Shown here piece by piece: positions 9,173 to 48,055 of a DNA stretch of 64,000 bases. The translations under genes and the position numbers were made by a program. Numbering within the stretch: the first letter of the stretch is position 1; the number at the start of each line of letters is the position of its first letter. The DNA is from Heterocephalus glaber (lineage: Eukaryota; Chordata; Mammalia; Rodentia; Bathyergidae), in NCBI RefSeq assembly GCF_000247695.1, contig NW_004624734.1:7179569-7243568 (forward strand), given 5' to 3'. Below the pieces are notes generated by a model, which searched no databases, was not told the DNA's origin, and saw only the letters and a program-made list of their open reading frames with translations.

Positions 9173-9339
9173 GTGTGAATAAATATTTTATATACTAAAT
9201 GAGAGTTTTCTTTTAGGTTATGTAGGCCCTCCTCCTTTTGTGTCCTTTGCATTTTATTGGAGGCAGAGAGGAGTGGCTACCTAGGCTTCAAATACCCACT
9301 TCCCTTGGTGCTCTGCTTGTCAGCTCTCCCTCAGGTCTT

Positions 9340-9422
9340 TTTTTTTTTTGGTACCGGGTATCGAACTTGGGTCTTTGCGCTTGCGCAGCAGGTGTCGAAA
9401 CCACTGAGCTAAATCCCCGGCC
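9340..9422 (-). mobile_element. ID-type SINE, antisense
   Basis: Reverse-strand ID element ending in GGTACC and poly-A (the T run at about 9,338-9,349 on plus). The direct repeat CTCCCTCAGGTCTTTT on both sides is a clear target-site duplication. Confidence 0.88.
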
Positions 9423-9439
9423 CTCCCTCAGGTCTTTTG

Positions 9440-19457: not shown

Positions 19458-22400
19458 CTGTTGAGTAGTAGACCTGAGGTTAGCAGGAAAATCACCAAAG
19501 AGCTCCCTTGTTTCTGTCTTGTTCCCAAAGCAGGCCAGGTGAAAGGAGGAACACAGGGACTAGCACGGGACACGGAGTGGCGTCTTACCACTCATGCTTT
19601 AGGGTCATCCCAGGGACTAGAGGTGATTTTCCTCGAGTCCTAAGTGAGAACCTGAGCGATGAAGACAGCGCCTATTGTTGCCCCTCCTCCCCCACCTTAC
19701 GGTAGCAGTCACTCGGTTCCCTTGAGGAACTTGTGTTCCCTACCTCACTGTAGCCTTCTACAGCCTGGGCCTGAGGCCCAGAACATGCCTCTCTCACTCT
19801 CCAACCCTTTGCCAGGTGGATGGGTTAAAGAATGAGAGCGTGACTGAAATCAGGTCCATCTGTGTCTTCCTGGAGAAACCAAACTCTTCCTAACTTTGGG
19901 GTCATTGGCTTCATGATGTAATCTGGAAGGAGAACGTGGCCGTGACTTTCACAGGTGGACGGAGGGAAGAGAGACAGGGCTGCCAAGAGAGAAGTGGGCA
20001 GCCACATCTGAGGGCATTTTTGGAGTCCTGGATGGACCTCTTCCTGATGCCCACTTACCTCCATTTCCCCAAGTTTGAGGGCTCAATAGATTTCCAATTT
20101 AGGCTTGGCTGGTTTGAGTTGGATTGTTTTTCCAATTTTAGTATATATGCTGCTGAAGCAAGCAGGGATTTTTTTCCCCTAGAGCCAAAAGAATTCTGAC
20201 TAATTTACAGAAAGAAAGCTCTCTGTGTGAGATCACATGCCCCGAGAGCAGTGAATAGGGCAGGGGATGTAGCTCAGTGGTTCCACCGCCTGCCCCGCAA
20301 GCACAAGGACCCGAGTTCGATCCCCAAGAGCCCGCCCCTGAGAGCAGTGTGTATCCTGTCGAGGTTAACTCCAGTTTCTGGTAAAGCGCCTGCCCCATGC
20401 TCTTTCCAGGGAAGGGAACAGTCAAGCAGAGGAAAAGCCAAGCCTGCCTGTTCCGCAAGTGCTGCTCCTTTCACCAACCTCTCCGCTCTGATATCACCCA
20501 AGGCCACTATGAGCTTTTAGAGGACAAATATTTTGTTTTCCTTTTTCCTCTAATCTCCAGGCTTAGGGCTTCAGAGACCTGCCAACAGCACAGTATATCT
20601 AAAAAGTTTGTCAATTTCTCTAATTAAAAATACTATGTTCAATGATTTTTATAATAATTTATATGTAAAATAAAGGCAGGCCTCTTTGCTTGGTCCCCTG
20701 GTGTATCAACTATGCCTTTACATGTCCGAGTCCACGGAGCATGGAGGCTATCCCTGGCCATTTAGACTGGGCTTGAAGGGGCATAGTTTTCAAGGGACTC
20801 GGGCGCATGTTGTCTGTTTAGGGTTGTTTTAGGAGGAGGCTCTGGGGAAGCGATCCCAAGGATTGGACTCTGGAGAGCTGGCCTTTTAGATGGCATGTGA
20901 CATTTGGTGACGGTGACCTGCCCCCAGGATGAAGACATGGCACATAACTTCCTGGAACCATTCACTCTATCAGTGGAAGAAAACCTTCTGGGTCAGGAAG
21001 GGTGGCTGGGAACTCGGAGCAGCCAACCACACTATCCCACGGGAATGCATAGGCCCCACTGCAGCAGAGCCCTAGTGTATACACCCAGCGGGCTCTTTCC
21101 GGCTGACCAGTTGGGTGCAAGAAAGATCCCTAAGATGAGGCGTGTGCCTGGGAGCCTCCAGCCCTGGCTCTTCCTGGACTGTGATGACACCCTTCATCAC
21201 AGCAGACATGGTCTTTAAGGAGCTGGCTGTATGGTACTGACAATTCTGGCAGATACTGCTAGATTTTTTAAATTATCCACTCCTCCCTCAGGCAGCCTAT
21301 GAGCCTCAGGGAGCGGACCTCTGGTCCCAGGTCCCCAAGAGAGGACCTGATTGGTGCAGGATAATCTTGCTAATCTTGCTCCTGCTGATGATTGGTTAGG
21401 AAACAGACACAATCCACTCAAGGTGAGTTCAGGGAGGGGCATATGATGTAAGTGGTCCAGCCAGGGTGAACTTCAGACCTGTTGGCATGTTGGGTGCTGC
21501 TCTCTCAGTTCCCTGGATTCCAGGGGCAGGAGAGTATGGCAGGCAAACTAGTGCTCCATGCTGCCCCACAAGGGAAGTGAAGATAAAGCCAGAGCACCGA
21601 GGACACATCCCAGGGCTTTGTGGAGAGCCGTGCTCCCTCCACCTTTGCATGGATGTCAGGTTACCTGGGCAGGTACTTAAAGCCAAAAGCATCCTGAGAA
21701 ACAGGAATTTTTTTTAAGTGCCAGTACTGTGGAGTAGTCAGGAGCTCTGCTCTCTGGCCTTGTGCCTTCATAGCAGTGTGGCATCCTAGAAACTACTGCC
21801 CTGTCCGGAACCCAGGGTTCTCAAAGCACCTTCCACTCCCAGGACTACGTTTGGTAAAAATTAGAAGAACTGGTGATGAACAAGGGCTCTGTGGGCTACC
21901 TGAAAACCGAGGAACTAGGAGAATCTTTTAGGATGCTTCTAATAAACAAAAGTGAACAGAACACGCACAGGAGCCAATCCCAGGCGCTCTCAGGTAGGAC
22001 AGTCGACAGAGGCTGCCTAGATTCAAGGGCAGAGCTTTGCTGCTCTGAGTGGATTTGCACCATGGTGGATGCACAGCTGAGGGAGCTGAGGAGCCTGGTC
22101 AGAAGGATGTGGCAGCCACGGAGCTGAGAAGCCAGGAGCAACCTGACAGAAGTCGTACCAGTGACTCAGGGCAGGCTACGCCCTCCCAGCATGGGGTGAC
22201 TGCTGGGCTCCGCCTCAAAGACACTGCCTGGGGCATCCTGGGCTCTCACAGCTTGGTGGCAAAGGTCCCTTGCTGACCCTTAGAAGTGTTCTGAAGTGAG
22301 GAATGACACTTCGGTGCTAGTTAGACAGCACAAGGCAAGTCCCTTGGTCCTTCAGACACCAGCATCTTCATCCATTAAATTTAAGGTGAGGATTCATTTT

Positions 22401-37090: not shown

Positions 37091-39065
37091 CAGCTTCTCA
37101 ACTGAACTCCTAGGCCTGGTGAAGGAATTGCAGTGACAATCTGGAGTCCCTGCAGTGTCAGGCTTGGTCCTCGTAGGAGGCCAGAAAGCAGGAAGAAGCA
37201 GCAGGGTAGGGGAGACAGAGGGGCCTGGCTCAGAATGCATCTAGACCCCCACTCAGCACAGGCAGGTCAGTGGGGACAGGGGTGCTGATGTGGCCACATG
37301 AGCACCAGATTGGTGTGCTCCACCCCTGACAGGCTTCCAGAGGCGGCATCTCTAATCTTACAGGCAAAATGTGCCAGTTTCTCTGTCTTCCATCCTGGTC
37401 CAGCAGAGGTTTCTTTGGAAGATGAAACTCCACTTTGCCTCTGAATGGATGTGGTATAAAACAGATTTTTCTGACACCTCTTGGGCAACTTTGATTCTCT
37501 TTGCTTTCTGTCCTCCCCAGCTGTTTCTAAAGAGATGTTGTATGCCCACATTCTCTTAAATTCTGGTTCTCTTTTCTCTGGTGGGGCTTTAATTCTGGAG
37601 CACTTGCAGAAGCTGGCTTTCTCCAAAAGCCTGGCCTCCAGCTGCATGCCGCACCTGGTGGCCCTTCCCAGTTTCTTGGGACACCTGCACTGCTCTGCTT
37701 CCCGTCTGTAGACAAAAAGAGAATGCCAAGGCCTTGCTGGCCGCCAGAAAGAGTTTGTCTTCCCAGTGATGCCTGTATGTAGGGAGGCTGACCTTGGCCT
37801 CTCATCCCCCCGTGAGGCTCCTCGGCCTTCAGCCTGTTCCCAGGAGCACCCACACTATAGCTGAGCTCTGCACATCTTATCAGCACCCGGAGCCTCTTCA
37901 CTAGGGCTGCCCTTACCTTGTGCTGAGAAGCTCCCTCCTCCCAAGCTTCCCCTATCTGCACACAAACAAACCCTCCAACTCACATTCCACCCTCCTGAGA
38001 GCCTCCCAGATTCCCCCTAACTAGGACAGGGCACATCTTTCCCTCTTCCACAGCATGCCTGACGTGCACACATCTTGGGACTGCAGGCCCACACTACTGG
38101 TCAGCAGCTGGCCTTCTTGGTTTCAGCACCATGGCCCTGGGAATTTGTTGGTGGATGTGGGAATCAACTGGGGTCAGCAGATAGCCACCCCCTTCCCACT
38201 AGCAGGTTCCTTCAGATGTGCCTTTCCCAGGGCAGGTGGCACCCAGGAGCTGAAAAAGATGGAAACATAAATATCTGGCCATTCCAGCCTAGCAGGGGAC
38301 TACTGGGCAGCAGTGTCTCTCCAGCTCAGGAGGTGGCAAGGCTCTTTGGGGGAGCACTGCAGCTTGGCTTTTCTACCTACTTCCCCTGACAGCCTCCTAC
38401 TTTCTTCCACAGGTGTGGATTTCTGACAAGCATCTTGCACCCGAAACTCCATCCATCTTAGCATCTGCTTCCTGGAGACCCAGCAGGCTACATCAGCTTT
38501 CTTCATTCAGTGGCTATAGATGGAGTGTGGATAACATATAAATGTTCTGAGTTCTGAGCACATGGACTAGTGGAACAAGAAGACCTGAAAACCAGTAACC
38601 CCCAGAAGGATGTAACGCCTGGAAAGACCCTATGTCCAAATATGCTGACATTCGGAGATGGTGAGTGTTATGACTTCAGCATATCTTTGCGGAAGGAGAC
38701 ATAGTTCACCTCTTAGCATAAAGTTCTTTCACTGGGGCCACCTCCCTTCCCCTGTCTCCATCCCAAAAACCAGATCAGTGGTTTCCATCTTTGTTAATTT
38801 TGCAGAACTAGAAGAAATCCTAGTGACCATAGTAATCCAGCCCTGCTCTTGCTGCATTCCTCCCTAGCACTTGTCCCCTCGAGCTTGTTTATCTATTCTG
38901 TGTCCTCCCACACCGCTGTCAGCTGTACAAGGACAGTCGGTGGCTTTGCTCATCTTCCAGGGCTGAGAAGTGTGTCTGGCAGAGTTGATGCTCAGGAAGT
39001 ATTTGTTGGAAGGATGGCTAGACATACTTTTCTTTAACAGCTTTACTGAGGAATAATTCTCATTC

Positions 39066-39498
39066 TAAAGCAGGACTTAAAGGAAGATGAGTTTTTCCCA
39101 GCTTTGGGCAATTTCTGCTCCTCTCAAATCATCCCCTCACTCCTGTAGCTATAACTCTTTGTTCTGGTATACATAAAATTGACAACTGTGTCCTATAAAC
39201 AAAGTTTATGACATCTTGTTCTCACAAGTTCACAAGGCTCTGTCTTCTTTCAAGGCTAAGTTACAAGACTATCACCACCTGATTAATCACTTTTGTCTAG
39301 CTTCTGTAACCTTGCTTGCCCAGCCCCAATTTCTCGCCACTAGAAAGACCCTCCCAAGCCACATGTACAAAAGCTGGGGGTTTTTCTTTGTTTGGGGCTC
39401 AGCTTTTGGACAGTCTGAGAGCCAGTATGCACCTAAAATCCTGGAATAAAATCTTCCCATTTCACCATGGTTTCTTCTGTCTCTTAAATTTTGCAACA
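39066..39498 (+). repeat. 5' LTR of the ERV
   Basis: It starts TAAAGCAGGACTTAAAGGA and ends TTGCAACA, and aligns along its whole length with 46292-46734. An AATAAA polyadenylation hexamer sits at 39445-39450. Where the 3' copy has a TATA box, this copy reads TACAAAAG. The terminal TG expected of an LTR has decayed to TA in both copies. Confidence 0.9.
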
Positions 39499-41008
39499 TT
39501 CCCGGTGACCACCAAGGGACAGGAGATGACACTCTTGCTGTCTCCTTTGCCTGCAGACACAGGGCCCCCTGAGCTGAGGGAAATCTGAAACCCCTGGCAC
39601 CACTGGGTGAGACGTAAACTGGGAGAGGGAATCATCTCTCCTGAAGTCCAGAGTCCTCCCCTGTCAGCACAACAGAACCTGAGGGGTACAGGACAATTCT
39701 GGAATGACACCCTACAGAACCACAGAAAGGTTTTGGGACCCAGGAAAAGGAAGACTTGTCCCATAAGTACAGAACGGGAGAGTGATAGCCTCCTGGGGTG
39801 TACCGAGTAATCTGACCTGGATTTAGTCAATCGAAACCTACAACCCCAAGTTGGAAACTCGAGAGTGGCCCCCAGGGAGAGTGGCTTGCACCTGGGAATG
39901 TGGGAGGTGGGCTGCAGTGAGTGGCTCATAAGAGGTGTACCTAATAGTCTGGCCTAGGTAAGCTGGGATGAAATCTACACCCAAATTTGGAAAAAGGAAC
40001 CAAAAACAGGGAGGGTCATGGTGCACCGGATATCTACAGAGGAGATGTGGGGGAGGCAAAGGCATGAGGAAAGCCACTTAGCTTTAGTCTACTGGGATAT
40101 ACAAGTGAGGAACCACAGGCAAGCAGATAGCAGAGAAAAAGTGCACCCTGTGAAATGCAATGATGGCAGCCACCAGCCCAGATGGGGGACCAAGACTGGA
40201 ATAGCCCTGAGGAGCTGGCTGGTTCAGCAGCTAGGGTGAAGCAAAGGCACAGAGCCAAGAGACTTGGGCCCAGCTGCACTTGTACAGATTAGAGGGACAA
40301 AGCACAGGTTATCTTTTCATTTCAGAGAGACAGAGCAGGGCAATATGGGGGGAGACGAGAGCCGTGCGATCCCCCCAACTCCATGAGCCTGGCCCTGCCC
40401 ATTCACAGCCTTGCTTCTGGCACTACCTTGCTTAGCTTGGCCCATGGACGGGCACACATTTTCTTCAGAGGCAAGGGGCTGAGCCAATGACTTTGACCAC
40501 TGTGGGCCCAAGATACTGAAGCAGATGGGCAGGGAGCAACACACTGGGATTGCTCAGGATCCAAGCATAGGGACTGCATGCTAGCCAGAGCCCCAGTGCA
40601 GGTGACTATGGGTTGCGTGTACCACAGGACAAAGCAGAGAAGCACAGGTCAGACCTAAGGTTTCCTTCTCTTGACTTTGGGAACCCTGAGGGTGGTACTT
40701 ACTTGGCATCAGCAGCCTGGCACTGCCTCCACTGCCTCTAGAAGCTGGAGCCCTAGCCAGGGTTTGGATGGCTGAAGTCAAGGAACTGTGGCTGCATCTT
40801 GCCAGGCCTGAAAAGGTTTTACAGGAGGATCAGAAGAGACCAAAGGAGGGCTCAGTCCCTCTTTCCCTTGAAGAAAATTCCCCTGAACAAGAAAAATAGG
40901 ATTACAAATGTTGGCTAACTGATAAATTTACTTTTTGGCTTCCATTTTAAGTTGGTATTATTGTTTAATTAATATGCTTAAAACATTTCTTGTTCATTGT
41001 AAATTCTT
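39499..41008 (+). other. ERV leader and unassigned 5' internal region
   Basis: This stretch lies between the 5' LTR and the antisense ID SINE. Expected contents are primer-binding site, packaging leader and gag start. No tRNA-complementary site beginning TGG is evident right after the LTR, and no gag start is recognisable. Short open frames here have no identifiable family. Confidence 0.5.
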
Positions 41009-41099
41009 ATTTTATTTTATTTTTTGATACCAGGGACCAAACTCGGGACCTTGCGCGTTTGAGGCAGGGGGAAGAACTACTGAACTAAATCCTTGGCCC
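41009..41099 (-). mobile_element. ID-type SINE inside the ERV, antisense
   Basis: Reverse-strand ID: the B-box side (ACCAGGGACCAAACTCGGGA) comes first and the A-box side (TACTGAACTAAATCC) last. The A tail is expanded to an AAATA-type repeat. Confidence 0.83.
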
Positions 41100-41315
41100 A
41101 ACATTGTAAATTCTTAAACTGTGATTACAGGGTTAACTTGCTATTTTCGCTGCTCTAGGATGGTTTAAGATAAGAACACTGATTCAAGATTACTTAGAAG
41201 TCTGTTGGCAGCCAGTCAAATTTAAAATGTAACAATCTGAGACCTAAGGGAGAAAAAGAGAGAAGGACACTTTAAAATCCAAGTGGCACCAAGTGGCTAG
41301 GGATGAAAATCAGCT

Positions 41316-41373
41316 GGAGCACCCAGACCAATTTCCTTACATCAGCTTGTGGCTGAACATAGCAAAAGCCTGA
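41316..41373 (+). pseudogene. Possible gag matrix remnant
   Basis: A short frame reads HPDQFPYISLWLNIAKA before a TGA at 41371. It resembles the conserved part of class I ERV matrix domains around a HPDQ-P-YI motif. It is only about 18 residues, so the assignment is tentative, but its place directly upstream of the plectin-like block is where gag would be interrupted in a gag-host fusion. Confidence 0.4.
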
Positions 41374-41554
41374 CCCAGATGACTACAGCCCTGTCTGGCA
41401 CCATATTGTAAAACACTCGTGGCCTGAGCTGAGCCTAAAACAAAAGAGATTTTAAAAATCAGCCCTGCTGGAGGCCACAGGAATAAAGAAAAGGCAGCAA
41501 AACACAAGCCTGACACTGAGGAGCACCTGGTCCAGCTGCACAAGGCATTTCAAA

Positions 41555-42770
41555 ATGAGCTCAGCAGTGACAGTTGGTGAGGCCAAAGAGCATGTAAAGA
41601 AGAGCCTGGTAGCTGAGGAGGAAGCTGCAAAGCAGCGCAAGGCTAGGCTAGAGGAAGTCAAGCAGCTCAAGGCCAAGGTAGGAGAGGCCCAGTGCCTGTG
41701 GGAATAAGTAGAACAGGAGTCAACTCAGTAGCTACAGCTGGCCCAAGAGGCTGCCCAGGAACAACTACAGAAAGGAGAAAACACAGGAGTGTGCTAGAGC
41801 AGCTATGTGGTGAGGCAGCATTAGCTCAGCAAGTGGCTGAGGCAGCTGAGGAGGCTTGAGAGCATGCCTAACATGAAGCAACACAGTCTCACTAGCAGGT
41901 GGAAGATGCAAAACAGCTAAAGCAGTTGGCAGGGGGACATGCCCAAGCCAAGGTATAGGCAGAACTGGAAGACACAAGAACTGCAACGGCACACGCAGGA
42001 GGAGATGCCATGGAAGAAAGAGGCAGCAATGGACACATAGCATCAGAAACCCAGTATCCAGGAAGAGCTGCAGCATCTGTGACAGAGTTCAGAGGCAGAG
42101 ATCCAGGCCAAGACTCAGCAAGTAGAGGCAGCTAAATGCAGCAGGCTGAGGATCAAGGAATAGATCCACATGGAATGCCTACAGCTGGAGAAAACTGAGT
42201 GCCAACATGGTGGGACTGAGAATAAGCTGCAGGCTCTGCATGTGTGGGTAAGGACAGAAGCACAGAAGCAGCAGGTGCAAGAGGAGAGCCAGCACAAGCA
42301 TCAAGCAGAGGTAGAGTTGGCCCTGCACGTGAAGGCTAAGGCTGAGACAACTCAAGGTAAACAGAGGGCTGTGCAGTCACTGAAGGAGTTGTGACTACAT
42401 GGTGAGGAGGCAGAGAGGTAGCTGTAGCAGGCAGAAACAGAGCGGACATGTCAAGTGCAGGTAACCCTGGAGACAGTTCAGCATAGTACAGAGGCAGAGC
42501 TGCAGAGCAAGTGTGCCTCCTCTGTAGAGAAGACTGCACAGCCAAAGTATACCCTGCAGGAAGAGCATGTGGCAATGGCCCAGCTGTGGGAGGAAACAAA
42601 GAAATGGGCACAACAGCAGGCAGAACCTGAATGTGCTTATGAGGAGGCACAGTGGAAGCTGGAGCACTGGCAGCTAAAGACCAATGAGACACTGAGGCTG
42701 TGGCTACAGTAAGAGGAGGTAACATAGCAAAAGAGCTTATGCAGGCCGAGGCTGAGAAACAGAAAAATAG
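41555..42770 (+). pseudogene. PLEC: Plectin (PLEC) rod-domain fragment carried inside the ERV
   Basis: Seen: broken frames that are rich in E, Q, A and K. Block A, about 41,585-41,930, reads KKSLVAEEEAAKQRKA, EEVKQLKAKV, LQLAQEAAQ and VAEAAEEA. Block B, about 41,935-42,770, reads IQEELQHL, SSEAEIQAK, EEHVAMAQLWEETKKW and EAQWKLEHWQLKTNETLRL. Known: these match recalled rod-domain sequence of plectin, the cytolinker, where the rod is encoded by one very large exon. Block A corresponds to a more C-terminal part of the rod than block B, so the order is swapped. Arginines of plectin are mostly W, C, Q, H or K here, as expected from CpG decay. At least ten stops and several shifts make it non-coding now. 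Weaker similarity may extend back to about 41,480. Alternatives are a retrocopy that landed inside the ERV, or another coiled-coil gene; the residue-level match makes plectin much the best. Confidence 0.85.
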
Positions 42771-42844
42771 AGACTATATTCAGATAAGTCACCAAAGCTA
42801 AGAACAGATGAGCTACATGGACAGCTCTTAGAACACAGAATCTT

Positions 42845-43420
42845 GGCTAGATGCCAGTCATCTTAAAATACCCTGCTTTTACCAGTACACAAACCAGGAA
42901 TTAATAAATATAGACCAGTACAGGACTTGCATGGTATGAATCAGGCCACTGGGACCATTCAACCAACAGTACCAAAACCATACACATTGACAGGACTCAT
43001 TCCAGCAAGTGCTGCTGGGTTTTCTTGTTTAGATTTAAAAGATGCCTTTTTCTGTCTCTGCCTTGCGCCAGTCAGCCCATCCTCACATTTCAATAGGAGG
43101 ATCCTGTTATGGGCATAAAGGAATAGTTCACTGGGCTAGGATTCCCCAGGGATTCAAAAAAACTCTCCTATGATCTTTGGAGAGGTGCTAGCAACCATCT
43201 TTAAAGGGAACTGGGTATTAAATGAAAACAAGGTGTGTGTCCTCCCAATTCCAATCTCCCAATGCCAAACAAGAAAGTTTGGGGAGGAGCAGGATTCTGT
43301 TTTATCTAGATCCCAAATTTTTCACCTACAGCTAAGCCCCTATATAAAGCTACCAAAGGGGGGAAAAAGACCCTCTCCTCTGAGAAACCGAACAAGAAAG
43401 AGCATTTGAACAAATCAAAA
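42845..43420 (+). pseudogene. ERV pol: reverse transcriptase remnant
   Basis: Translated pieces show the RT fingers and palm start (KPGINKYRPVQDL, then SCLDLKDAFF with a catalytic-type aspartate) and a PQGFK motif near 43,150. The expected YVDD stretch is missing, apparently removed by a deletion after about 43,205. Stops and frameshifts interrupt the rest. The sequence is of class I retroviral type and cannot encode an active enzyme. Confidence 0.85.
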
Positions 43421-43798
43421 GAGCCCTGACTCAGGCCCATGCCTCAGGGCTCCCAGTTACAACTAAGGCTTTCTTCCTGTATGTCCATGAGTGAAATGGA
43501 ATAGCTATAGGTGTTCTAACTCAGGTCATGGGATCCTGGCATTGTCCGGTGGCATACTTGTCAAAACAATTAGACTCTGTGGCCTTGGGATGGTCTCCAT
43601 GCTTTAGGGCACTTGTTGCCACTGCCCTGCTAATGTAGGAGGCTGATAAGCTGACTTTGGGACAACAACTGACTATTCAGGTTCCACACTCAGTTATAAC
43701 TTTAATGGACCAGCAAGGGCACCATTGGTTATTAAACCTGAAAATGGCTCAGTATCAGGGGCTCCTATGTGAAAATTCCTGCATAGCTCTAGAGACAG
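43421..43798 (+). pseudogene. ERV pol: connection domain remnant
   Basis: The frame reads [20 protein letters not shown], then DKLTLGQQLTIQVPHSV, typical of the RT connection domain of class I ERVs. Stops (TGA, TAG) interrupt it. An ID SINE inserted immediately downstream. Confidence 0.8.
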
Positions 43799-43880
43799 GG
43801 CTGGGGATTTAGCTCAGTGGTGCTGCTGCCTGCCTCACAAGTGCAAGGTCTCAAGTTCAATCCCTGGTACCAAAAAAAAA
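43799..43880 (+). mobile_element. ID-type SINE inserted in ERV pol
   Basis: A tRNA-like head (GGGGATTTAGCTCAGTGG A box; GGTCTCAAGTTCAATCCC B box), then GGTACC and poly-A. Short flanking copies of TAGAGACA suggest a target-site duplication. It postdates the ERV. Confidence 0.85.
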
Positions 43881-43989
43881 TTAGTTGGAATAGAGACAAT
43901 AAAGACAGTCCAGCTATTTGCTCCCAGTCAAACCAGGGCCTCCTTCACGACTGTTTAAAAAACATGGATGAAGTATGCTCAAGCTGAGG

Positions 43990-44420
43990 CCACCTCACCA
44001 ATCACCCCCCCAAAGACCCAGATTTTAAATACTTTACAGATCAAGGCAGTTCTCTACTAGAAGGAGTCCAATGGGCAGGATACGCAATGGTGACATTAGA
44101 CTTTATGATAGAGGCTCAGCCCCTGCCTACCAGAACTTCAGCCTAGAAGGCAGAAGTGATAGCCTTTATAAGGGCTCTTTTTCTAGCAAAAGACAAAAAG
44201 GCCAACATCTACACCGATTCTAAGTACACCTTTGCTATGCTACATGTACATGGGGGCTATATATAAAAGACAGGGGGATCTTAATGGCTGGGAGAAAAGA
44301 GATAAAATACAAGGAAGAGGTTTTACAACTTCTAGATGCTGTATGGGTTCTGAAAAAGGTGACTGTTTTACGCTTCCGGGGATGTCAATGGACTGGCCCT
44401 CTGAAAGCCAGGAGAAATAA
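43990..44420 (+). pseudogene. ERV pol: RNase H remnant
   Basis: Motifs in order: FTDQGSSLLEG, KAEVIAFIRAL and IYTDSKYTFAML, carrying the D, E and D positions of retroviral RNase H. A stop precedes the glutamate motif and the C-terminal part is frame-broken. Confidence 0.8.
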
Positions 44421-44639
44421 AAAACAGACAGAGAAGCTAAACAGGCAGCTATGGCAACCCCACAACCTAAAAGAGAGACCCTAGCTATGTCCCTCACCTC
44501 AGAGCCTCCTCTCCCAAAGACCCCAAGCTACTCCTGAGATGAAAAAGCCTGGTTTTCCCAAGAAGCTAGAAACCATGTAAGGAGGGATGAGAAAAGTTTG
44601 TTGATGGGAGGCAGGCCATCCCTGAAGTGTTGAGCCCCA

Positions 44640-45475
44640 GCTTCATAAAACAATTTCATTGAGGGTCTCACATGGGAAAGACAGCACTGGAGATGTTATT
44701 AGGCAACAGTTTCTATGAGCCATGGCTCACTGCCATCACCCAAGCTGTTTGTGAGCAATGCCTAACTTGTGCTCAGAGCAACCCAAGACAAGGGCTCACC
44801 TGGCCTCCAGGCATCCAAGAAATTGGAACTGCCCCTTGTGAAAACTTGCTTTTGAACTTCACTGAAAAACCTTAAGCAGGAGGCTATCAGTATATTCTGG
44901 TACTTGTCTGAACCTTTTGAAGATGGATTGAAGCCTTCCTTGCCTGAACAGAAACAGCAAAATAAGTGATAAGAATATTGTTGAGAGATATCATCCTGAG
45001 AGTCAGACTGCCCCTGATCTTTGGGCCAGATAATAGACCAGCATTCATATCTAAGATAGTTCAAGGACTCATGTGAATGTTAAAGATAAAATAGAAATTA
45101 CACACAGTCTATTGGCCGCAAAGCTCAAGAAAGGTAGAGCACATGAAAAGGACACTCAAACAATTGTTTAAAAAATGCCCCCAAAAATCCATTTGAGATG
45201 GAATCAAGTCCTAGCCATTGTGCTCCAAGTCAGGTGCACCTCCACCAAACAAACTGGGTATTCCCTTTGTGAGATCTTGTTCTGCAGGCCACCCCTAATC
45301 ATGGGTCAATTTAAGGGCAATCTCTGCAAACTAGGAGAACTGACCCTAAGGAGGCAAATACAGGCTTTGGAAGTAGCCCTGCAAGAGATACATAGCTGGG
45401 TACAAGAAAGAATGCCCATAAGGCTAATAGAGCCTGTAGGAAACAGGGAAAGGGGACATTACTAGAACCTCTGCA
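44640..45475 (+). pseudogene. ERV pol: integrase remnant, N-terminal and core
   Basis: A zinc-binding type N-terminus (HMGKTALEML, then CEQCLTCAQ) is followed by a core in which the first catalytic aspartate position reads N in NFTEKP, the second survives in FGPDNRPAF, and stops are frequent. The segment 45,180-45,465 (GYSLCEILFCRPPL, LTLRRQIQALEVALQEIHSW) is the start of the integrase C-terminal part. Confidence 0.8.
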
Positions 45476-45544
45476 GTAAGTCCTAGTCTCCTGTGAGCCA
45501 TGGCAGCACAAAGCAAATTAACTTATTATACAGGAAAGGTAGAA

Positions 45545-45910
45545 AAATGAGACCTTGAGAAGAAGATGAGCTTTGGGTCTGATCAGTGCTGCTCTGAGTG
45601 GCAAAGACGAAAGGCCCCAGCTTACCATACCTTTTATTCAGTAAGTCAGGAGAAACAGATGTAACAAATGACTCAGGACAGAGAGTTCAGTATATCGGGA
45701 TAAACAAAGTGTAACAAATGACTTGCAGAGAGTTCAGTACATAGGGATAAACAAAGTGTAACAATCCAAGAACAATGAGGAACTGAGTAGATGATGATTT
45801 TGTTCGTCCCAGGATGTCTTCAGCTGGTGTAATCTTGTCCTGAAGCATCACAGCATCACCGGATCATTGAGGTCTCAGTTGTGACTAGAGGTCAAAATGG
45901 AACTCAAAAT
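45545..45910 (-). mobile_element. Probable solo LTR, antisense, splitting the integrase C-terminus
   Basis: This stretch interrupts the integrase C-terminal part, which resumes at about 45,970. Its right end (TGAGGTCTCAGTTGTGAC) resembles the right end of 47,265-47,660, so both belong to one LTR-like family. It contains a direct duplication of about 50 bp (45,663-45,763). An AATAAA is present on the minus strand near its left side. Family name not determined. Confidence 0.45.
45663..45763. repeat. Two-copy direct repeat, about 50 bp unit
   Basis: Two adjacent near-copies share AACAAATGACT, AGAGAGTTCAGTA and GGGATAAACAAAGTGTAAC. This is a local tandem duplication inside the antisense LTR-like insert. 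Confidence 0.8.
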
Positions 45911-45959
45911 GCCATAGCTGGCCTGTAGGCAAGAGAACTAGGATTTTTCCCTAAAATCA

Positions 45960-46135
45960 TGTAGCATTGCTCCTGACAAGAGCCAGTACCCTATTCAAAC
46001 GTGGGGACTTCATTTGGGTCAAGAAAAGGAATCCAACCAACCTGAGGCCCATATGGGATGGGCCTCATACTGTAATTTTATCCACCCCCACTGCTGTTAA
46101 AGTTGCAGGAGCTGTGCCTGGACCCACCACAGTTG
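45960..46135 (+). pseudogene. ERV integrase C-terminal (GPY/F-type) remnant
   Basis: The frame reads IWDGPHTVILSTPTAVKVAG, matching the GPY/F module at the end of gammaretroviral integrases. The polypurine tract follows about 150 nt later, so env, which normally lies here, has been deleted. Confidence 0.75.
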
Positions 46136-46280
46136 ACTAAAACCAGTGGCCCAAGAATGATTCTTCTTCTGCCCAATAGAGAGGGCCCCTCCTTCTGCCC
46201 AACAGGGAGGGCTCCCCCAATAACAGGATAGATGATACTGATCATGATGCTTTCTATTAAAACTTGTCATAGAAAGCATC

Positions 46281-46291
46281 AAAGGGGAGAA
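46281..46291 (+). other. ERV polypurine tract
   Basis: AAAGGGGAGAA lies directly before the 3' LTR, in the position and form of the plus-strand primer of gammaretroviruses. Confidence 0.75.
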
Positions 46292-46734
46292 TAAAGCAGG
46301 ACTTAAAGGAAAACAAATTTTTCCCAGCCTCGGGCAGTTTCCACAGTTTGGGTTAACCGCCCCCCCACCCCTCACCTGTAGGTGTAACTCCTTGTTCTGC
46401 TACAGATAAAATTGGTAACTGTGACCTGTAAACAAAGTTTATGACATCTTGTTCTCACAAGATTTACAAATCTCTGTCTTCTTTCAAGGCTAATTTACAA
46501 GACCATCATCACCTGATTAATTGCTTTTGTCTAGCTTCTGTAATCTTGTTTGCTTATTCCCTACCCCAGTTTCATAAGTTTCACACCACTAGAAAGACTA
46601 CCCCCTCAGCCACATGTATAAAAACTGGGGGACCTTTTTTTTTTTCCTTTGGATGTTAGTCTGCCAGGTCAGTGTACAACTAAAATCCTGGAATAAAATC
46701 CTCCCGTTTTCCCTATCTCTTAAATTCTGCAACA
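46292..46734 (+). repeat. 3' LTR of the ERV
   Basis: It begins immediately after a polypurine tract (AAAGGGGAGAA, 46281-46291) and matches the 5' LTR. It keeps TATAAAA at 46617-46623 and AATAAA at 46692-46697, separated by a normal R-region distance. The longest exactly shared run with the 5' copy lies around the stretch GACATCTTGTTCTCACAAG. Confidence 0.9.
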
Positions 46735-46739
46735 ATTCC

Positions 46740-48055
46740 ACACCACTCAGGCCTTCCAAGTACACAGTTTACTACTTTTTCTTTATCTATTCATCTATTG
46801 ATGGACATATAGGCTGTTTCCAAGATTTAACTATTATGAATTGTGCTACTATAAACATGGGTATGCATGGATCACTGTAATATGATGGCTTTAACTCTTT
46901 GGGGAAGATATCAAGAAGGGGTATGGTACATAGGTGCATCCACTTACCTATGAATGCCTCAAGTTTTTCTTTCTTTATAGCAGAGTAGTACTCCATTGTG
47001 TATAAATACCACATTTTTTATCTGTTCTCTGTTGGTGAGCATTTAGGTTGTTTTCAAGATCTAGCTATCACAAATCATGGTGCTATAAACATGGGTATGC
47101 ATGTATCAATGTAATATGATGTCTTTAACTCTTTCAGAAAGATACTTGGTAGAGGAAAATGGAATTTTTAGCTTTAGCTTTTTGAGGAATCTTCATACTG
47201 GTTTCTGTAGTGATTGCACCAGTCTACATTCCTGTTGGAAGCTGTGCAAACTTCCAGCCACTTGACCAAGGGTATGGTGGCAGGATAACAAAAGACAAGA
47301 CAAGATCTTTACTGCATACAGGGGGGTCCAGAATGGTCAAAGCTCTTATTAGGCTAAGATCCTGTCTCCTGGAGCTTGCCACTATTTATTGAATGCATAG
47401 CTTCTTAAAGAGGTGAGTGGTGGGTCAGGCAACAGTGGAGTGGAGAGCACTGAAGAGAGCAGGATCCTAGCAACAAGGGAACAAGACATTCTAGCAGGAA
47501 CAGCTCATTGATTAGTGGGAAATCTGTTTCTTCCCATGGATTAATTTTTGCCTTTATAGGAATTTTCTATATGAGTCATGATGCAGTGTTGTCTTGCCAC
47601 CTAAGACATCACAGTGTCATGGATCCTTGAGACCTCCACTGTGACCAATGGTGTGGGGAGTAGTTTCATTCCCACACACCAACTGCCAGCTCTTCAGGCA
47701 ACCATTGTGGGCTAATAGGCAGACTCAGACTTTTAATATGAAAAGCCAATTTATGAATTTGCAGCTCACTCAGGGTGGTCTCCATCACACTCCCACCAAC
47801 AGTGCAGAAGGGTCCCCTTTTCCCCACAGCCTCTCCAGCATTTGTTATTTGGTTTCTTGATGATGACCATTCTTTCTGTGGTAAGATAGTATCTCCCTAT
47901 TGTTTTAATTTTCATCTCTCTAATGACCCGTGAGGTTGAGCATTTCTTCAAGTGTTTATTGATCATTTGTACTGCTTCTTATGTGAAATCTATTCATTTC
48001 ACTTACTCATTTTTTGATTGTCTTTTGGGCGGGATCTAATTTTTTTTAGTTCTTT
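46740..48055 (-). mobile_element. Old L1 fragment, antisense (ORF2 3' part), split by an LTR
   Basis: On the minus strand 47,014-46,787 reads MWYLYTMEYYSAIKKEKLEA, the familiar ORF2 C-terminal stretch. The L1 continues leftwards in the element at 47,015-47,262 and resumes at about 47,770-48,055 (plus strand TCCCACCAACAGTGCAGAAG). A second copy of about 115 bp of L1 sequence occurs at 47,030-47,145. Confidence 0.75.
47265..47690 (-). mobile_element. Probable solo LTR inserted in the antisense L1
   Basis: Non-L1 sequence interrupts the L1 between CAGTCTACATTCCTGTTGG and TCCCACCAACAGTGC. Its right end (ATCCTTGAGACCTCCACTGTGA minus the last bases) resembles the right end of 45,545-45,910. Family not determined. 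Confidence 0.45.

Follow-up and report, generated by a model that had tools for sequence, protein, structure and literature searches.

Probable capture of a permuted plectin rod fragment by a class I endogenous retrovirus in the genome of Heterocephalus glaber

Results

Plectin block within the provirus

The analysed stretch, called here the window, comprises 64,000 nucleotides of the Heterocephalus glaber genome (assembly GCF_000247695.1, contig NW_004624734.1, positions 7,179,569 to 7,243,568 of the forward strand) and contains, at 39066-46734, an endogenous retrovirus (ERV) bounded by long terminal repeats (LTRs) in which a part of the rod of the host gene plectin (PLEC) is found. Very probably, the ERV took up this fragment during reverse transcription and then multiplied. 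Plectin capture had already been proposed in a sequence-only reading of the window; the position inside the LTR-bounded unit stood, and it can be added that the fragment is permuted and belongs to a small set of copies rather than to one copy.

The plectin block is approximately 1.29 kb long (41479-42765) and lies on the same strand as pol, which bears out the 1.2-1.3 kb rod-like block of the earlier reading with adjusted bounds; all four peptides quoted in that reading are present. The tblastn search of mouse plectin against the window gave 62% over 268 residues with E 3.7e-69. For a broader comparison, a long rod query (2,820 residues, with a region specified) gave 675 proteins at E <= 0.001, of which the best 120 were used, all of them plectins by name or by near-identity, and none of these matched the window outside 41300-42900 at the same threshold. 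Between 262 and 269 of 398 residues were identical to the plectin rows compared (the 12 best and 11 rodent rows of 52 distinct ones). The peptide SLQEEHVAVAQLR of the block is listed as plectin in PMC9913229.

When a plectin rod sequence was shuffled 50 times with preserved heptad phase, 20 shuffles matched at all, and the best of them reached 26 bits versus 261 for the unshuffled sequence. The score of the short piece P1 was 75, compared with at most 51 in 1000 shuffles. Diagnostic residues were uninformative as to the donor lineage, the searches of PDB and Pfam with the pieces of the block gave no match, and the similar-length protein searches (the block alone and an 881-residue rod) returned nothing at E <= 0.001 for the block.

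The four plectin pieces, numbered according to an 860-residue plectin rod reference, are listed in Table 1. The block is permuted, with the late rod (residues 566-808) placed ahead of the early rod (residues 60-352), and internal deletions are present too. The native PLEC gene of the same genome carries the rod as one open stretch in normal order, from approximately residue 32 to 860, in agreement with the earlier statement that the rod is one exon. The P4 piece of five copies showed 76-81% DNA identity to this exon. At the internal switch, the early and the late rod are alike at 23 of 30 bases in the register of the junction; among early-late rod pairs, about 1 in 9,000 has at least 22 of 30 bases alike.

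Copies elsewhere in the genome

The names used for the copies are as follows: W is the window copy, C77 corresponds to L009, C131, C2 and C3 (L008, L011 and L012) make up type B, C62 includes L031 and L036, and C6 (L010) is the native PLEC gene. Searching the same genome with 215 bases of plectin gave six places, i.e., the window, the native gene, C131, C77, C2 and C3. The query for the right junction gave 34 matches; all 32 candidates were scored, and the junction was spanned by six of them (the window, C77, C2, C131, C3 and C62). This query detects only copies that keep the right border, loci were obtained for 30 of the 34 matches, and the copy count rests on this one junction query. Plectin was present in those six loci and in the native gene and was absent from 23, three of which contain N.

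The outer junctions are common to W, L009, L008, L011, L012 and L036, and the internal switch to the first five of these. The search for further copies suggested by the sequence-only reading thus found the block shared at identical outer junctions in six loci; a single odd copy was rejected on the basis of these junction-spanning loci. L009 has its own LTR pair (Kimura two-parameter distance, K2P, 0.203) and its own 4-bp repeat, ATAG versus ATTC in the window. At least two plectin-bearing loci are therefore bounded by LTRs with their own 4-bp repeats, which means that the element integrated in the usual retroviral way after the capture. Between the 1-1.5 kb flanks of W, L009, L036 and L012 (the latter as the type B copy compared), the only matches were 67-99 bases long.

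The three type B copies are 88-91% alike over at least 8 kb and 87-93% alike in the readable upstream sequence; as the similarity includes the surroundings, they are best explained as one insertion later copied by segmental duplication. The plectin-bearing ERV fragment was seen in a dispersed segmental duplication (L008 and L011-L015) on three contigs at 87-93%, with a unit longer than 8 kb, approximately 15 kb for C131 and C3.

Plectin-free relatives and the replaced interval

Among 111 candidate relatives of the reverse transcriptase (RT), 40 were scored and 20 examined in sequence; the other 20 scored ones were checked only at the loci of the right-junction query. The window and C62 were the two of the 20 RT loci with plectin, and the remaining 18 had none within 1.5 kb upstream. 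Five of them (L037-L041) were followed further upstream, again with no plectin, the sequence of L039 being incomplete. L037, L038, L039 and L041 follow the window to approximately 41468-41502; L037-L040 rejoin it at approximately 42762-42768, and the next match of L041 begins at 42821. In L037 and L038, about 1.75 kb lie between the two window-like parts, including a short interspersed element (SINE) in L037.

The replaced interval of the sisters contains Gag_p30 (L041 E 1.7e-12, above the Pfam cut-off; L038 8e-4, below it) and the protease domain RVP (L041 8.9e-7, L038 0.014). Directly before the interval, Gag_MA was recognised in L038 (E 3e-12, above the cut-off) and in L041 (2.3e-4, below it). 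Judged by this alignment, plectin occupies the place of the capsid and the protease, and the matrix and RT-integrase parts are retained. No model for p12 or nucleocapsid matched in the sister interval; by position only, these would have been replaced too. Since this interval encodes capsid and protease in sisters that lack plectin, and the plectin-bearing copies share their junctions at other sites, the block was inside the element before its spread.

The native gene matches the right-junction query only to base 125 (window 42764), and the 27 other matches of this query begin no earlier than its base 118 (window 42757), so the break is placed at approximately 42757-42768. No common 8-mer and no poly-A tail was found at the edges of the block, where the longest A run is five; the retrocopy hallmarks to be looked for according to the earlier reading (poly-A and a target duplication around the block) were absent from these edges. 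At the plectin-pol junction, L009 and L011 have A AAA AAT, read in the plectin frame, and the window has G AAA AAT (42758-42770), possibly by chance. In L011, pol is in the -1 frame at the junction. A gag-like frame continues into plectin in L009 (KERQ followed directly by YKADIEQ); at the junctions of W and type B, gag and plectin do not share a frame.

Structure of the provirus

The LTRs, the 4-bp repeat, the polypurine tract and the pol gene named in the sequence-only reading were all recovered (Table 1), with ATTC as a direct repeat on both sides and matched RT and integrase domains. The two LTRs are 79.7% identical over 418 aligned bases (K2P 0.244). The element is assigned to class I, gammaretrovirus-like ERVs by its RT and integrase of the murine leukaemia virus (MLV) type, the Gag_MA and Gag_p30 of its family, and the paired LTRs with a 4-bp duplication. 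The RT piece matches the MLV RT with E 9e-20, and the Pfam model RVT_1 with just 0.047. Approximately 97 bases present in the sister copies are missing from the window near the RT start, at 42822/42823. The PDB searches with pieces just ahead of RT gave no direct match. In the viral contigs searched there was no RT relative, and the single coiled-coil match (L001, approximately 25 residues) was regarded as fortuitous.

The earlier reading had assumed the loss of gag-pro and env. Capsid and protease are indeed replaced, and only about 150 bases separate the integrase C-terminal domain from the 3' LTR, too little for an env gene in the window, and C77 offers no space for one either. The loss of gag is incomplete, as a matrix remnant survives upstream. 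This remnant matches PDB 1uhu weakly (E 0.45, which means little without the sister alignment) and had no match in Pfam; its position is that of Gag_MA in the plectin-free sister L038. The leader contains approximately 1.7 kb (39499-41250) without recognisable gag, part of it conserved among sister copies, and the open pieces tested showed no recognisable gag domain. At 41283/41322, L009 and type B have some 440 AT-rich bases that are absent from the window copy. The stretch behind the 5' LTR, at the position of the primer binding site, is decayed in the window and in L009, and no tRNA was assigned there.

Table 1. Features of the plectin-bearing provirus (window coordinates)
Feature	Position	Strand	Basis or remark
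Target-site duplication ATTC, 5' side, 4 bp	39062..39065	+	read directly
5' LTR, 433 bases	39066..39498	+	direct repeat of 46292-46734; also matches LTRs of sister copy L009
Leader	39499..41290	+	partly common to sister copies; open pieces tested for gag domains
ID-type SINE in leader	~41016-41103	reverse	flanked by CATTGTAAATTCTTA
Gag matrix (MA) remnant, C-terminal part and stretch right behind	41290..41478	+	aligns where plectin-free sisters have Gag_MA
Plectin P1, residues 566-593	41479..41562	+	left junction ~41479-41502
Plectin P2, residues 672-735	41579..41770	+	plectin alignment
Plectin P3, residues 761-808	41788..41931	+	plectin alignment
Plectin P4, residues 60-352, earlier in gene than P1-P3	41920..42765	+	order switch ~41920-41931
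Right junction plectin/pol	42757..42768	+	native PLEC similarity stops, plectin-free ERV similarity starts
Viral stretch ahead of RT and RT fingers	42766..43118	+	~97 bases of sister copies missing at 42822/42823
ID-type SINE inside pol, later insertion	43790..43878	+	ID-type SINEs also elsewhere in window
Integrase zinc-binding domain	44663..44875	+	Integrase_H2C2 E 3.8e-4, below Pfam curated cut-off
Integrase C-terminal domain	45955..46140	+	MLVIN_C E 6.8e-12
Polypurine tract	46271..46291	+	read directly
3' LTR, 443 bases	46292..46734	+	direct repeat of 5' LTR
Target-site duplication ATTC, 3' side, 4 bp	46735..46738	+	read directly

In the integrase region of the window, approximately 540 bases (45435-45978) look inserted and include a 47-bp tandem repeat at 45637-45764; the integrase of L009 is continuous without the insert, and a sequence resembling it was found outside the L009 provirus. 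Directly downstream of the provirus, at 46794-47144, there are two 117-base direct repeats, 234 apart and 81% alike, in a sequence which we take from its translation to be L1-like. SINEs of what is presumably the ID type occur in both orientations (643-731, 9338-9429, 20250-20338 and 43790-43878), together with a piece at 1127-1183 that we assume to be B1-like; repeats of these kinds point to a rodent host.

Decay of the plectin block

The plectin frame is broken in all six copies examined. The K2P distances of P4 outside CpG were 0.17 between the native gene and the window, 0.19-0.21 between the native gene and type B, 0.25 between the native gene and L009, and 0.24-0.26 between the window and type B. 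These values leave only about 0.06 for the shared stem plus the native branch, so the copies would have parted soon after the capture. The loss of invariant residues would fit a value of 0.07-0.13 per site, which agrees with the halved LTR distance (K2P/2 = 0.12). Invariant arginines were kept at 5 of 36 positions versus 120 of 148 for invariant residues other than arginine and alanine, and the observed/expected CpG ratio in the block is 0.07. This CpG-like pattern of decay is what methylated germline DNA should show.

Within the portion of P4 retained in L009, there is no stop or frameshift that W, L009 and type B all share. The ratio of nonsynonymous to synonymous changes (N:S) outside CpG was 15:12 on the stem, 29:25 in type B and 36:23 in W, all under the approximately 3:1 of sites. 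No selection on plectin is claimed, because the long-decayed W shows a low ratio too.

Discussion

The course of events that we consider very probable is as follows. A class I ERV in a rodent ancestor would have acquired part of the single plectin rod exon during reverse transcription, when RT switched template onto a co-packaged plectin mRNA. A further switch within plectin, at a place where the early and late rod are alike, would have put the late rod before the early one. The resulting hybrid, without its own capsid and protease, was probably copied using the proteins of other family members. Its plectin part would have been a passenger, the frame of which was lost by the lineages largely separately and mostly through germline CpG decay. 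Template switching fits the data because the block is on the same strand as pol, viral sequence is replaced and not interrupted, neither poly-A nor a common 8-mer is present, and the inner switch seems to be guided by homology. By its sequence, the element also shows the features of a gene-transducing retrovirus: a host sequence stands within the LTR unit, replaces viral genes and is inherited at the same junctions.

Several observations weigh against this reading. Since the captured rod sequence comes from one exon, with no intron boundary inside it, the block gives no proof of an RNA donor. The similarity to plectin-free sisters is uneven at the outer junctions (on the left 11 of 13 bases for L037, 9 of 13 for L038 and 8 of 13 for L041; on the right 8-10 of 13 in six sisters, with the register of the junction not always kept). 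No LTR was found for type B, and with type B counted as one duplicated locus the independent insertions would number about four, not six. L036 keeps the outer junctions and has lost most of P4 along with the internal switch, and L009 is without 357 bases of P4. The K2P distances of the right flank (W to L012 0.30, W to L036 0.29, W to eight plectin-free copies 0.28-0.34) do not set the plectin-bearing copies apart as a group, although a shorter distance (0.21) separates L012 from L036; this implies either a star-like tree or a block moved between copies by recombination. Finally, stops are shared pairwise at residue 97 (L009 and type B) and residue 225 (W and type B), so a part of the decay may predate the insertion.

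The fragment could also have been acquired at the DNA level, if a provirus located in the rod exon of PLEC or beside it was fused to this exon by deletion and recombination and then transcribed and spread. The one-exon rod suits this course, since the block demands no spliced RNA; unequal recombination between rod repeats could give the permuted order, and read-through of a fused provirus, a classical first step, would fit as well. We nevertheless regard it as unlikely, because the two outer borders and the inner switch each require a separate DNA event in a short stretch, and a virus of one family bounds the block on both sides. That an L1-made plectin retrocopy landed in an existing ERV is scarcely credible, although retrocopies are common and the block is intron-free: the edges lack the traces described above, the ERV sequence at the site was replaced and not interrupted, and the identical junctions in sister copies at different insertion sites led to its rejection. 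The chance that the block is not plectin, being another coiled coil or a mere matter of composition, is negligible. Coiled coils resemble each other and the similar-length search was blank, but plectin, with approximately 4,500 residues, is outside the length limit of that search, and the match to plectin, the low-scoring shuffles and the identity of P4 to the native PLEC exon led us to reject this explanation. A better fit to another coiled coil had been raised as a doubt in the earlier reading; the block aligns to plectin itself, the 120 plectins being the coiled-coil proteins covered by the comparison.

It is improbable that the element benefited from plectin, for example by using it as a coiled coil that associates with itself instead of the capsid, or as part of a gag-plectin protein. 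Such a use would agree with the absence, from the comparable part of P4, of any disabling change shared by all three lineages, with the gag-like frame that enters plectin in L009, and with N:S ratios under those of sites on all branches. However, the ratio of the frame-broken W hardly differs from those of the stem and type B, base composition or saturation may explain it, and gag and plectin are out of frame at the junction in W and type B. A little less probable still is that the rod served the hybrid for a time in a matrix-plectin-polymerase protein without capsid, made through -1 frameshifting where the junction is rich in A and carried in the particles of intact relatives, which is suggested by the junction motif in L009 and L011 and the pol frame in L011.

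Uptake by template switching, the reading we prefer, can be compared with known systems. In acutely transforming retroviruses, a host gene lies between the LTRs beside a gag remnant, and the viruses are defective and helper-dependent. Among them, v-src and v-sis are named in PMC13297096. The plectin element is similar in that a host gene replaces viral genes between LTRs with a gag remnant adjoining, and differs in having no oncogene and in consisting of old germline copies. We know of no transforming role of the plectin rod. The likeness to acutely transforming viruses drawn in the sequence-only reading holds for the structure; nothing shows transforming activity, and the frame is broken in the six copies examined.

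LTR-mediated retroposition by template switching was reportedly described by Tan et al. in 2016, and FAM8A1 has reportedly been transduced by an ERV. According to PMC5408686, retroposition of the LTR-mediated kind shows microsimilarity at the joins and possibly multiple switches, and it resembles the plectin element in that a chimeric, partial cellular transcript in an LTR element becomes mobile again via the LTRs. The plectin hybrid differs from it in that two parts of the host sequence changed places at the inner switch, and in its later multiplication. Crocodilian ERVs captured the KIT-ligand (CrocERV29) and nectin3 (CrocERV31), according to PMC4299795; as here, a host sequence is present within the LTR unit of a germline ERV lineage with several insertions, and for nectin3 there are close relatives without the capture and a viral gene was sacrificed. 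The crocodilian captures have long open reading frames, are read as mRNA captures and are reported to be under purifying selection, whereas the plectin element holds an internal permuted fragment, shows no selection and has capsid-protease, not env, replaced.

No capture of plectin by a retrovirus was found among the open-licence papers listed by the searches, judged by titles and abstract openings. The earlier supposition of an unprecedented case holds to this extent, but the capture of host genes by ERVs as such was already known; plectin as the gene and the permuted fragment appear new within the literature searched.

What is known of host-gene capture by retroviruses comes largely from tumour viruses, in which growth selection determines what is observed. 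In Heterocephalus glaber, germline copies have kept a fragment of a cytoskeletal gene of no obvious use, and with the donor exon, plectin-free relatives and several hybrids in one genome the steps of capture can be read without the filter of an oncogene. They suggest that a hybrid without capsid and protease could still multiply.

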